64,000 bases of DNA from Hyphomicrobium sp. Its GTDB lineage: Bacteria > Pseudomonadota > Alphaproteobacteria > Rhizobiales > Hyphomicrobiaceae. A program made the position numbers and the translations under genes. Position 1 is the first letter of the stretch. The number at the start of each line of letters is the position of its first letter. Of this stretch, positions 26,339 to 29,617 are shown piece by piece. The notes beneath the pieces are model-generated. The model had not been told where the DNA came from. It did no database searches and worked only from the letters and a program-made list of their open reading frames with translations. The stretch is from the NCBI RefSeq assembly GCF_019744875.1, contig NZ_JAIETU010000002.1:1240001-1304000 (forward strand). Direction: 5' to 3'.

Positions 26339-26344
26339 CCGCTT

Positions 26345-26442
26345 CGAGGCTGGCGGCGGACGAGACCATCGCCAACCGGGTCAGGTCCGGAAGGAAGCAG
26401 CCCTAACGACAGGTGCACGGGTCGTTCGTCAGCCTCTCTTTA
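26345..26442 (+). ncRNA. ffs: Signal recognition particle 4.5S RNA
   Basis: RNA component of the signal recognition particle, which pairs with Ffh to target membrane proteins co-translationally. The conserved domain IV motif ggtcaggtccggaaggaagc (part of 26379-26402) is unmistakable. The ends pair: gaggctggcg (26346-26355) with cgtcagcctc (26427-26436), giving a hairpin of about 95 nt, the usual bacterial short form. A run ctctttaattt follows and may end transcription. ffs upstream of dnaX is common in Alphaproteobacteria. Confidence 0.95.
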
Positions 26443-26573: not shown

Positions 26574-26659
26574 AGAGTGAGGTTCGCCAAGACGCTCCCG
26601 GGCCGTTCGGCAGACGTGTTGTCCTTGGACAGAAGAGCTTTGGGGCATTGGAGCGAGGC

Positions 26660-26986
26660 GTGTTGAAGATCCTTCGCCCACTGCTGATGCTGCTTGCGGC
26701 TCTGCCGCTGATGATGGGCGTCGTCACAGCCAGCTTTGCCGAAGCGCCCTGTCCCTATGGCCACAACGGCGGCACCGATCGGTCTCCCTGCCCCTGTTGC
26801 GACAAGCTGATTTTGGCTGCAGCGGTGCCCTGCCTTCAGTGCCAATCGGCCATCGAATCCGCCACGGCCGGCTGGCTGCCGCGCCTTGACGCGACACGCA
26901 TTTCTTTCGCGCCGCTCAACCAGCGCGCGGGCGGGCTCAGCATCGAGCCGCCGCTTCCTCCTCCGCGATCGATGGGTCTTTCGTAA
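26660..26986 (+). CDS. Small secreted Cys-rich protein
   Basis: A 108-residue protein from GTG 26660, with GGAG six bases upstream; an in-frame TTG at 26648 is an alternative. Residues 1-28 are a clear Sec signal peptide (LRPLLMLLAALPLMMGVV) cleaved near SFAEA. The mature part has six cysteines in about 35 residues: APCPYGHNGG, SPCPCCDKL and VPCLQCQS. It ends in a Pro-rich tail (EPPLPPPRSMG). The overall layout resembles small exported heavy-metal-associated proteins of the DUF2946 type, but that is a weak analogy. It is 34 bases upstream of the next Cys-rich gene on the same strand, probably one operon. Confidence 0.7.
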   Translation: MLKILRPLLMLLAALPLMMGVVTASFAEAPCPYGHNGGTDRSPCPCCDKLILAAAVPCLQCQSAIESATAGWLPRLDATRISFAPLNQRAGGLSIEPPLPPPRSMGLS

Positions 26987-27020
26987 GTCCGAAATCCCAT
27001 CATCAAACAGGAGAAACCCA

Positions 27021-27140
27021 ATGACAAAAGTCATTGCATCGGCGGTCTTTGCGCTTCTGGCGCTGACCGTCACGGCCCAGGCTGCGCAGGTTTGCTGCGA
27101 CCTTCTGGTCTGCTGTGACGGCGGACCTTGCTGCGACTAG
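27021..27140 (+). CDS. 39-residue secreted peptide with three CCD motifs
   Basis: The gene encodes 39 residues: a 21-residue signal peptide (MTKVIASAVFALLALTVTAQ then A) and a mature peptide of 18 residues, AQVCCDLLVCCDGGPCCD. Six of these 18 residues are cysteine, arranged as three CCD units. The ATG is preceded by caggaga at a seven-base spacing. Export and a thiol-rich acidic core suggest metal binding, for example copper or zinc, but no experiment or recognised family supports this here. It is the second gene after the Cys-rich 108-residue protein. Confidence 0.75.
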   Translation: MTKVIASAVFALLALTVTAQAAQVCCDLLVCCDGGPCCD

Positions 27141-27309
27141 TCTCGCGAACGGCGCTCGCTCCGAAAGGGGCGAGCGCTATCGCAGCCCCTCCCCCGTACC
27201 CTTCGGGGGCTCGTCTTGCTGATCCGGCGCTTTAGATCCTAAGATCGCGCCGCGCTCTGCCGGGCCGGCACCAGCCCGCCCGCGACGAACGAAGTGAAAT
27301 GCAGGATCG

Positions 27310-29184
27310 ATGGCCAAGAAGAAATCGGATAGCGATGCGATGACGGCTGACGAGGCGAACTCGCCGGCCAAGCCGTATGTCGTGCTGGCGCGGAAATACC
27401 GGCCGCAGACGTTCGACGACCTGATCGGCCAGGAAACCATGGTGCAGACGCTGCGCAACGCGTTCACATCGGGGCGCATCGCGCACGGTTTCATGCTGAC
27501 CGGCGTACGCGGCGTCGGCAAGACGACGACGGCCCGCATTCTCGCGCGCGCGCTCAACTACGAGACCGACACGATCCATCAGCCGACGATCGACATGCCC
27601 GTGCTCGGCATCAATTGCCGCGAGATCATGGAGAGCCGGCACCCGGACGTGATCGAAATGGACGCCGCGTCCAACACCGGCGTCGACAACATCCGCGAGA
27701 TCATCGAAAGCGCGCGCTACCGGCCGCTCTCCGCCCGCACCAAGGTTTTCATTATCGACGAGGTGCACATGCTCTCGAAGGGCGCGTTCAACGCGCTCCT
27801 CAAGACGCTCGAAGAGCCGCCGGGGCATGTGAAGTTCATTTTCGCCACGACCGAAGTGCGCAAGGTGCCGGTGACGGTGCTGTCGCGCTGCCAGCGCTTC
27901 GACCTCAGGCGCGTCGACGTTCCGCGCCTCGCCCAGCACCTCAAGTCCATTGTCGCCAACGAAGGCGCATCAGCCGACGACGACGCGCTGACGCTCATTT
28001 CGCGCGCCGCGGAAGGCTCGGTGCGCGATGCGCTGTCGATCCTCGATCAGGCGATCTCCACCTCACTTGGCGCGGACAGCGCAGACGGCAGCACGGTCAC
28101 GGCGGCGGACGTTCGTGCGATGCTCGGGCTCGCCGACCGCGGGCGGATCTTCGATCTCCTCGAGCAGCTGGTCGCGGGAGATATCGCATCCGCGCTCCAG
28201 GCGCTCGACCGCCTGCACCACGATGGCGCGGAAGCCGCGCAGGTGCTCTCCGACCTCGCCGAAGCGACGCACATCACGGCGCGCATCAAGGCTGTCGGCG
28301 CGGACGCCGCCGGTGAAGACCTCGCCCTCGACGAAAAGCGCCGCGCAAGCGCGCTTGGCGAGCGCCTCTCGATGGCGCTTCTGGCGCGCCTCTGGCAGAT
28401 GCTGCTCAAGGGTCTCGAGGAAGCCGGCAAGGCGCCCAACCCGCTCGCGGCCGCCGAAATGGTGCTGATCCGGATCGCGCACACGTCCGATTTGCCGCCG
28501 CCGGACGAGATCATTCGCGCGCTTGGCGGCGCACCCACATCGCGCCGATCCGCCGAGCGGCCCCCCGCGGCCGAACGCAACGGAGCGGGCGCGCATGCAG
28601 CCTCCTCCACGGCACCCGTTGCCCGCCGCGACGCCGAGTTCGAAGGGGCAGACGGCGACGGTGCCGGCGACGCGGCGTTCGACTCGGAAAACCCCGGCGA
28701 TTTCGATTTTCCCTCCGACGGCGGGATCGACGAAGAGGCGGACGAGGACGGCGCGCCCGCCGTGGCGGCGCCCGGCCCGTCGCTGCGGCCTCTGTTGCGG
28801 TTTGCGGATGTGGTGGCGCTCGCCGGCGACCGGCGCGATGCGAAGCTGCGCATTGCGCTCGAAGATCAGGTGAGCCTCGTCAGCTACGACGGGACGGCCG
28901 GCACCATCGACCTGTTCCTGCTGCCGGGCGGCAACCCGGACGTCGCCAACGACCTGCGCGAGAAGCTCAACAAGTGGACGGGGCGGCGCTGGATCGTGGC
29001 GCTCTCGAAGGTGCCCGGCGAGCGGCCGATCGGCGAAGTGCGCCGCGAGCGCGATGCGCGCGAACTCGCGGCCCTGAAGCAGCACCCGGCAGTGGCGGCG
29101 GTGCTGGGTGCGTTCCCCGATGCGGAGGTGACGCCGGTGCGTCCCGTGCAGCGCGAGCGCGACGACGACAGCAAGACGGGGTGA
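27310..29184 (+). CDS. dnaX: DNA polymerase III subunit gamma/tau
   Basis: Clamp-loader ATPase subunit, 624 aa. Residues about 30-260 are the AAA+ module: Walker A GVRGVGKTTTA, Walker B FIIDEVHML, SRC motif VLSRCQRF and sensor 2 GSVRDALSILDQ. The zinc-finger cysteines of the E. coli protein are missing from the stretch between Walker A and DVIEMDAASNTG, which I understand to be usual for Alphaproteobacteria. An acidic, Ala/Pro-rich linker (about 415-490) leads to the tau C-terminal domain. No slippery A-run for a gamma frameshift is evident. Followed, after inserted genes, by ybaB. Confidence 0.96.
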   Translation: MAKKKSDSDAMTADEANSPAKPYVVLARKYRPQTFDDLIGQETMVQTLRNAFTSGRIAHGFMLTGVRGVGKTTTARILARALNYETDTIHQPTIDMPVLGINCREIMESRHPDVIEMDAASNTGVDNIREIIESARYRPLSARTKVFIIDEVHMLSKGAFNALLKTLEEPPGHVKFIFATTEVRKVPVTVLSRCQRFDLRRVDVPRLAQHLKSIVANEGASADDDALTLISRAAEGSVRDALSILDQAISTSLGADSADGSTVTAADVRAMLGLADRGRIFDLLEQLVAGDIASALQALDRLHHDGAEAAQVLSDLAEATHITARIKAVGADAAGEDLALDEKRRASALGERLSMALLARLWQMLLKGLEEAGKAPNPLAAAEMVLIRIAHTSDLPPPDEIIRALGGAPTSRRSAERPPAAERNGAGAHAASSTAPVARRDAEFEGADGDGAGDAAFDSENPGDFDFPSDGGIDEEADEDGAPAVAAPGPSLRPLLRFADVVALAGDRRDAKLRIALEDQVSLVSYDGTAGTIDLFLLPGGNPDVANDLREKLNKWTGRRWIVALSKVPGERPIGEVRRERDARELAALKQHPAVAAVLGAFPDAEVTPVRPVQRERDDDSKTG

Positions 29185-29362: not shown

Positions 29363-29617
29363 ATGCGCTTTGTTTCACTTTCGGCTGCCCTGCTGGCGGC
29401 CCTGACCGGATCCGCCTTCGCGGCGTCCGAAGGCAAGTTCTCAAAGACCACCGTCGACGGCATCGCCAAATCGCTGACCGCCGATGGCTGCAAGCTCGGC
29501 GAAATCTCATCCGGCGACGGCTTCTATGCCATCTCGAACGCCGAGTGCGCCGACGGCAAGTACACCATCACCGTCGATACCAATTTCAAGATCACCGACA
29601 AAAAGAAGAAAGAGTAG
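29363..29617 (+). CDS. Small exported protein, possibly PepSY-like
   Basis: An 84-residue protein with a signal peptide (residues 1-20, cleaved near SAFAA) and a mature domain of about 60 residues: a helix (VDGIAKSLTADGCKLG), then strands (GDGFYAISNAECADGKYTITV) and a Lys-rich end. The helix-strand layout is like a single PepSY domain, a weak resemblance. A good ribosome site (gggag) precedes the ATG, and a rho-independent terminator follows at 29662. So it is its own transcript inside the dnaX-ybaB interval. Confidence 0.75.
   Translation: MRFVSLSAALLAALTGSAFAASEGKFSKTTVDGIAKSLTADGCKLGEISSGDGFYAISNAECADGKYTITVDTNFKITDKKKKE

Follow-up and report, generated by a model that had tools for sequence, protein, structure and literature searches.

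Between ffs and dnaX, the Hyphomicrobium sp. DNA analysed here (a stretch of 64,000 nucleotides, hereafter the window) carries two very short genes whose products look exported and rich in cysteine, and the question raised by this locus is what such a pair of genes could be for. An earlier sequence-only reading saw in them a coupled pair of exported thiol-rich products, plausibly serving metal binding or redox chemistry, in an arrangement for which it knew no named family. We propose, with a probability of about 0.66, that they form a two-gene metal-response cassette, in which a nascent-chain metal sensor encoded by the first gene (ORF1) would control the production of a periplasmic metallothionein-like peptide encoded by the second (ORF2). 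The locus is organised as follows.

26343..26442, plus strand: ffs, bacterial small SRP RNA (Rfam RF00169, 48.1 bits), the upstream neighbour, outside the cassette.
26660..26986, plus strand: ORF1, putative CutF-like leader of 108 aa, GTG start (alternative TTG at 26648); Hyphomicrobium sp. LHD-15 preserves its frame and its Cys/Pro motifs.
26951..26968, plus strand: codons CCG CTT CCT CCT CCG CGA for PLPPPR, of which CUCCU (26958-26962) is predicted to pair with the ORF2 Shine-Dalgarno sequence.
26958..27013, plus strand: predicted stem-loop across the 3' end of ORF1 with its stop codon and the following spacer, with an outer helix CUCCU/AGGAG and an inner helix, which would hide the ORF2 ribosome site.
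27009..27013, plus strand: Shine-Dalgarno AGGAG of ORF2, read from the sequence.
27021..27140, plus strand: ORF2, a 39-aa precursor, probably of the secreted peptide AQVCCDLLVCCDGGPCCD with three CC pairs (translation, conservation).
27151..27178, plus strand: strong hairpin 3' of ORF2 (z -4.4; counterpart in LHD-15, z -6.9).
27310-29184: dnaX, named by reading its sequence.

The hairpin that follows ORF2 may mark the end of the ORF1-ORF2 unit; it has no T run and is thus no textbook terminator, and a terminator scan gave no call there. A plus-strand sigma-70-like promoter site was looked for at the locus and none was found. Beyond dnaX, at 29363-29617 (plus strand), lies an ORF of 84 aa with two cysteines, whose N terminus looks signal-like and which has no convincing Pfam match.

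ORF2 runs from an ATG at 27021 to a stop codon at 27138-27140 and its 39 codons read MTKVIASAVFALLALTVTAQAAQVCCDLLVCCDGGPCCD. Judging the signal peptide and its cleavage site by eye, we divide the precursor as MTKVIASAVFALLALTVTAQA^AQVCCDLLVCCDGGPCCD, which leaves a mature part of 18 residues, six of them cysteines, arranged in three CCD units. The sequence-only reading had described this gene well, including its ribosome site, its one-third cysteine content and its position between ffs (by Rfam) and dnaX (by reading), and erred in the spacing, which is CCDx3CCDx3CCD and not CCDx4CCDx3CCD. Upstream, with 34 nt between its stop codon and the ORF2 start, ORF1 encodes 108 aa with, as that reading had also stated, a signal-like N terminus (by eye) and six cysteines (C31, C44, C46, C47, C58 and C61), with the motifs CPCC and CLQC. 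The protein ends with PPLPPPR followed by SMGLS, its last residues being IEPPLPPPRSMGLS.

Both frames recur in LHD-15, a genome of the same genus, where they evolve at very different rates. ORF2 is 92% identical to its counterpart, which carries one additional C-terminal D, and has an omega of 0.047 (3 nonsynonymous and 14 synonymous changes), against 0.208 for dnaX. None of the 3 nonsynonymous changes falls in the mature part, whose sole difference is the extra D; the resulting omega of 0 is a small-sample figure, based on 11.7 synonymous sites. ORF1 shows only 46% identity (dN 0.44, omega 0.35), with its cysteines and the C-terminal PPLPPPR kept. Conservation, together with the omega of ORF2, rules out chance ORFs, and that both genes are coding and coupled is close to certain.

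In order to see how widely the pair occurs, we searched 60 genomes, including that of the window, and found clear matches to both ORF1 and ORF2 in one other, LHD-15, in the same order ffs, ORF1, ORF2, dnaX. Six other genomes of the genus (G002-G007) gave no ORF2 match and weak ORF1 matches (best E 0.011), so the expected joint conservation in close relatives holds for LHD-15, down to frames, cysteines and PPLPPPR, and fails for ORF2 in these six. The search for the CCD pattern in small ORFs that had been suggested was productive. A scan of the genome collection for CCD-x2/4-CCD-x2/4-CC gave at least 119 stretches, from which L059, L083, L089, L139 and a truncated copy, L074, were kept by eye. 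Among the matches listed, most in-frame stretches were by eye unrelated repeats, and four were intact, short, signal-bearing proteins, from LHD-15, a Rhodospirillaceae MAG, Erythrobacter colymbi and Blastomonas natatoria. Two others among the matches listed, L101 and L109, look signal-bearing and cysteine-rich, yet they are longer and different and were set aside, as were, after inspection, the weak matches L158-L160, L184, L185 and seven ORF2 matches among kin; L169 was likewise a weak match (E 0.9).

Profile searches brought the total to 18 intact peptide genes in 14 genomes: one each in the window and LHD-15, two in the MAG, three in E. colymbi, one in B. natatoria, one in each of three other genomes of the B. 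natatoria family and seven in six genomes of the E. colymbi genus. Two truncated copies from Porphyrobacter sp. SLTP (L165 and L168) are excluded from every count. The peptide family is rare and patchy. In the window's own family a true peptide was found in 2 of 103 genomes (a third match was dropped), while the samples of its order (1 of 297), class (1 of 385, two matches dropped) and phylum (1 of 249) each returned the window's own genome. The order of the Rhodospirillaceae MAG gave one true case in 297 (two matches dropped), the E. colymbi family 5 of 347 and the E. colymbi genus 8 of 114, one of these with truncated copies only. Among 72,556 plasmid records, searched with the low-complexity filter on, ORF2 and the E. 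colymbi peptide had no match, the Rhodospirillaceae peptide had one (E 8, under an Ancylobacter copper-binding protein) and ORF1 had three (E 3-6). In viral contigs 84 stretches fitted a pattern and none was confirmed.

Several cysteine-rich sequences met along the way are separate observations. The truncated Porphyrobacter CC peptides (L165 and L168, also L074) lack a start, signal part and leader; the same upstream DNA precedes both L165 and L168, and in L074 it includes an integrase-like ORF (by eye), a hint that these copies may have moved with a mobile element. L184 and L185 are ORFs ending in GGSCCSGSSCC, a short CC tail reminiscent of the motif in the peptides. Among the matches listed there were also six actinobacterial proteins of about 350-470 aa (L046, L056, L058, L113, L118 and L119) with dense CDCCDGCDCC-like tails, some of which start near FGIIRPCRHRL; they make up a separate recurrent cysteine-rich family.

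What the peptides share is the cysteine framework. In an alignment of 11 of them the only invariant columns are M1 and all six cysteines, and the seven intact copies outside the alignment all read CC-x5-CC-x5-CC. Two subtypes can be distinguished, one with a CC pair every six residues (the window, LHD-15 and the Rhodospirillaceae MAG) and one with a CC pair every seven residues (most sphingomonads), L180 being mixed; in the latter, the pairs would fall roughly on one helix face. Precursor length ranges from 39 to 49 aa. ORF2 has no match in Pfam or NCBIfam, so the absence of a named family stands for this gene, and the best peptide match among solved structures (PDB) had an E of 0.16. A Pfam hit of the E. 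colymbi peptide to Phage_coatGP8 (20.7 bits, below the cut-off of 24.6) covered the signal and helix-like residues, and was judged compositional. The peptide is thiolate-dense in the manner, we presume, of bacterial metallothioneins and copper storage proteins (Csp), which we take to be far larger, whereas the ORF2 product is tiny and by its look exported. That it binds metal is very likely.

The leader accompanies the peptide almost without exception. For 17 of the 18 peptides, an ORF on the same strand stops 19-49 nt upstream and has PPP[R/Q] near its C terminus, and in 14 of these 17 cassettes the gap is 33, 34 or 36 nt. By comparison, 1738 ORFs 80-150 codons long were called mechanically, from start to stop, in all six frames of the window and 116 loci; two of them end in this style, one of which is ORF1 itself. 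The 17 cassettes are not 17 independent events, since those of L166 and L206 are identical and those of L208 and L209 nearly so, leaving 16 distinct. The exception, L161, is an intact peptide gene with no leader, lying on the same strand 3' of a PCuAC copper chaperone gene. Ten leaders could be aligned, with 15-46% identity to ORF1; PPP is invariant in them, followed by R in nine (Q in L164), and four cysteine columns are nearly invariant, with variable spacing between the cysteines.

These traits recall CutF of Rhodobacter capsulatus, the leader of cutFOG (PMC8456105, PMC9973294). As far as the available parts of these two papers describe it, CutF, like ORF1, is about 110 aa long and has an N terminus that looks like a signal, a cysteine motif in its centre and a tail rich in prolines that contains PPPR; a short spacer follows, and a predicted stem hides the next gene's ribosome site. 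In the part of PMC9973294 available, CutF-like proteins are catalogued according to the genes that follow them, and CutF reportedly acts through a pause coupled to its export, upon which a stem covering the cutO ribosome site opens; the proline tail alone was no strong arrest sequence in an assay. The available part of PMC8456105 gives the CutF tail as PEPEGPPPRL, states that deleting this tail or the CxxxC cysteines lowers CutO activity by about 90%, and mentions other Cys variants among CutF-like proteins. ORF1 is shorter than 150 aa, has a hydrophobic N terminus that by eye may be a Sec signal peptide and carries a PP motif within its last 15 residues, and fits the rules that the accessible text of PMC9973294 sets for CutF-like proteins; with CutF itself it shares, by prediction, the stem over the next ribosome site. 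The statement that no named family is known therefore does not extend to ORF1. Two differences stand out from the same partial sources: ORF1 has CPCC and CLQC in place of the CxxxC of R. capsulatus CutF, and the gene downstream encodes a six-cysteine peptide of 39-49 aa instead of a multicopper oxidase, RND part, TonB receptor or PCuAC.

A second type of leader, CruR (DUF2946) of Bordetella pertussis, is likewise an upstream ORF with cysteine and proline arrest motifs that heads a metal operon, as described in the portion of PMC9426467 available; unlike ORF1, it has a RAPP arrest motif, acts via Rho and has its operon shut down by Cu. ORF1 ends in PPPR-SMGLS, whereas the tails of 15 DUF2946 relatives carry RGPP or RAPP. 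Membership of DUF2946 (PF11162) was rejected, as ORF1 has no Pfam match at E up to 10 and hhalign against these 15 relatives gave less than 3% probability. Two true DUF2946 (CruR-type) leaders, both with SARGPP in their tails, are encoded elsewhere in the window's own genome, at C7:66824-67168 (L189) and C1:692249-692587 (L202).

The predicted RNA fold gives ORF1 a possible means of acting in cis. In the window, the predicted partner of AGGAG of ORF2 is CUCCU, which lies within the PPP codons, with P=0.98 at four RNA lengths. Shuffled sequences have a mean P of 0.67-0.77 and 1.7-7.7% of them reach 0.98; the energy is reached by at most 0.3%. When the fold begins 9 nt beyond the Pro-Arg codons, as it would with a ribosome there, P falls to 0.45. 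In LHD-15 a stem of the same topology appears in one cut; the best fold of a longer cut has no outer helix, and its ribosome-site P is 0.59 against 0.58 for shuffles. Among the sphingomonad copies P is at least 0.73 in 10 of 12 (L164 and L211 excepted), with varying partners, from the leader's last codons to elsewhere. A stem over the ribosome site is absent in L164 (0.26), L211 (0.06) and L180 (0.23), and no Shine-Dalgarno motif was found in L179. Only L170 of eight relatives compared with shuffles exceeded its own. Since the fold in most relatives does not surpass their shuffles, the stem counts as a strong prediction in the window alone and is not general. Taken with the fast evolution of ORF1 and the invariant PPP, it points to a CutF-like cis-acting leader and not a second exported effector, and we consider CutF-like action of ORF1 likely.

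The neighbourhoods of the copies bear on the metal. Metal-related or RND-type efflux genes lie near 10 of the 18 copies within the fetched stretches, a count without a matched control. They include PCuAC (L083), CopA-type multicopper oxidase and CopB (L215 and L221), a BufA2 bufferin with the MNIO BufB (L172, E. colymbi), a CusA/CzcA-type RND pump above its cut-off (L171) and cation efflux proteins (L177, L217 and L218; L177 also has a MerT-like ORF that scores below cut-off, and L218 has ArsR). L174 and L216 have adaptor and outer membrane efflux genes only, recognised by generic models; in L174 the metal-exporter model IhpB matched below its cut-off. Other loci, where few flanking ORFs were scanned, showed a MerR regulator (L181), a TonB receptor (L183), Mfd (L182) or an MFS transporter (L220). 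The family scan covered the flanks of copies other than L173, L219 and LHD-15; in the window two flanking ORFs were scanned and the others read by eye, and no metal gene was recognised beside the pair, the neighbours being nuo genes, ffs and dnaX. Copper is plainest in four loci (L083, L172, L215 and L221), and certain neighbours suggest divalent metals, Hg or As instead. We lean slightly towards copper as the main metal.

Three of these loci hold further genes of note. In L172, 5497-6258 contains two bufferin-like ORFs, one per strand, the BufA2 match being above cut-off for one and far below for the other; they adjoin genes for MNIO BufB, DUF2063 and DoxX, near the CC-peptide cassette. In L218, 7224-10464 holds a cassette in an island of arsenic type, with ArsR, an SBF-family transporter, FMN reductase and, below cut-off, an ArsC-like protein as neighbours. 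In L182, RNase P RNA (RF00010; 9099-9481, minus strand) lies about 3 kb from the cassette, a housekeeping RNA near a copy, as is ffs in the window.

Other functions can be imagined for each gene. ORF1 could be a stable periplasmic metal-binding protein or chaperone that acts with ORF2 in trans, as its signal-like N terminus and clustered cysteines would allow and as was first proposed for CutF itself, a Cu-binding component or chaperone in the available part of PMC8456105. We find this rather unlikely: despite the fast evolution of ORF1, all ten aligned leaders retain PPP and nine the R after it, cysteine spacing varies, and gene order and closeness are kept in 17 of 18 loci; the accessible text of PMC9973294, moreover, has CutF working only in cis and being degraded after export. 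ORF2, in turn, could be the precursor of a modified metallophore (RiPP), its cysteines converted by an MNIO as in bufferins, oxazolins and methanobactins. L172 adjoins BufA2-type bufferins, BufB and a DUF2063 partner, the window-type peptide has CxxxxC units, and the consulted part of PMC12452194 describes a CxxxxC precursor class of MNIO clusters as well as small secreted Cys peptides, the bufferins, directed against copper stress. Unlike those, ORF2 has three CC pairs, and neither it nor two relatives matched the BufA models of NCBIfam. Among the part of the flanking ORFs that was scanned, an MNIO was recognised near one of the 18 copies only, and L172 has bufferin precursors of its own; none was seen by reading between ffs and dnaX in the window, an interval without room for a maturase. 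Modification of this kind is accordingly improbable.

Proximity to ffs might instead suggest a SecM-like export monitor, in which a failure of secretion or SRP targeting would make ORF1 pause and ORF2 would take part in an envelope stress response. The window and LHD-15 copies do adjoin the SRP RNA gene, and C-terminal proline arrest motifs are known from Sec/YidC-related monitors (PMC12992588 and PMC10987492, in the parts available). Nevertheless, no Rfam SRP RNA was found in the 4.9-16 kb stretches around the other 16 copies, SecM, VemP and MifM regulate secretion genes (PMC9973294, in part), 10 of 18 copies lie beside metal-related or efflux genes, and conserved Cys clusters would not be expected of such a monitor, which we regard as very unlikely. 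Equally unlikely is a thiol-redox buffer or disulfide-exchange substrate with no role as a metal ligand: adjacent CC pairs can form disulfides and both products look exported, but the flanking ORFs scanned (part of all) included no Dsb- or thioredoxin-type family, the neighbours being metal efflux, copper oxidase, copper chaperone and metallophore genes. The coupled, thiol-rich and probably metal-linked pair of the sequence-only reading, exported by its look, thus survives, while its second half, ORF1 as another thiol-rich effector in a redox system, gives way to a probable leader.

For the metal-response cassette, the steps that follow are our inference, from expression and export through pausing and metal binding to which metal is involved and in which direction regulation runs. 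ORF1 would be translated and exported while still bound to the ribosome. In the periplasm its cysteine cluster would meet a thiophilic metal, probably Cu(I), which would slow export and cause the ribosome to pause on the C-terminal PPP-R codons. In the window, a ribosome pausing there would cover the bases that pair with the ORF2 ribosome site, so that the stem would open and ORF2 be translated. After export and removal of the signal peptide, the 18-residue product with its three cysteine pairs would bind metal as a small periplasmic metallothionein-like scavenger. More metal would then give more peptide, as with CutF and not CruR, a direction suggested by the tail and spacer, which resemble those of CutF.

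The leader type is already known, while the peptide and its pairing with such a leader were not met in titles and abstract starts of the open-licence literature; the supplementary neighbour tables of PMC9973294 could hold unnamed cases of a six-cysteine peptide behind a CutF-like leader. We see an even chance that the cassettes, dispersed in Alphaproteobacteria, represent a new family of periplasmic metal-binding peptides that are made on ribosomes, probably stay unmodified and carry three cysteine pairs, every one of them under the control of a metal-sensing nascent leader of its own. Such a family is easily missed because the gene is so short. Genes of 39-49 codons can be skipped by ordinary annotation, and some CutF-like leaders may therefore control metal peptides that have gone unseen. 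Because the unit is small and self-contained, it could be used to test directly whether a nascent chain senses periplasmic metal and gates the production of a scavenger. If our reading is true, it is a minimal sensor-plus-scavenger unit, and exported thiol peptides would join bufferins, metallothioneins and Csp as a further class in bacterial metal tolerance.
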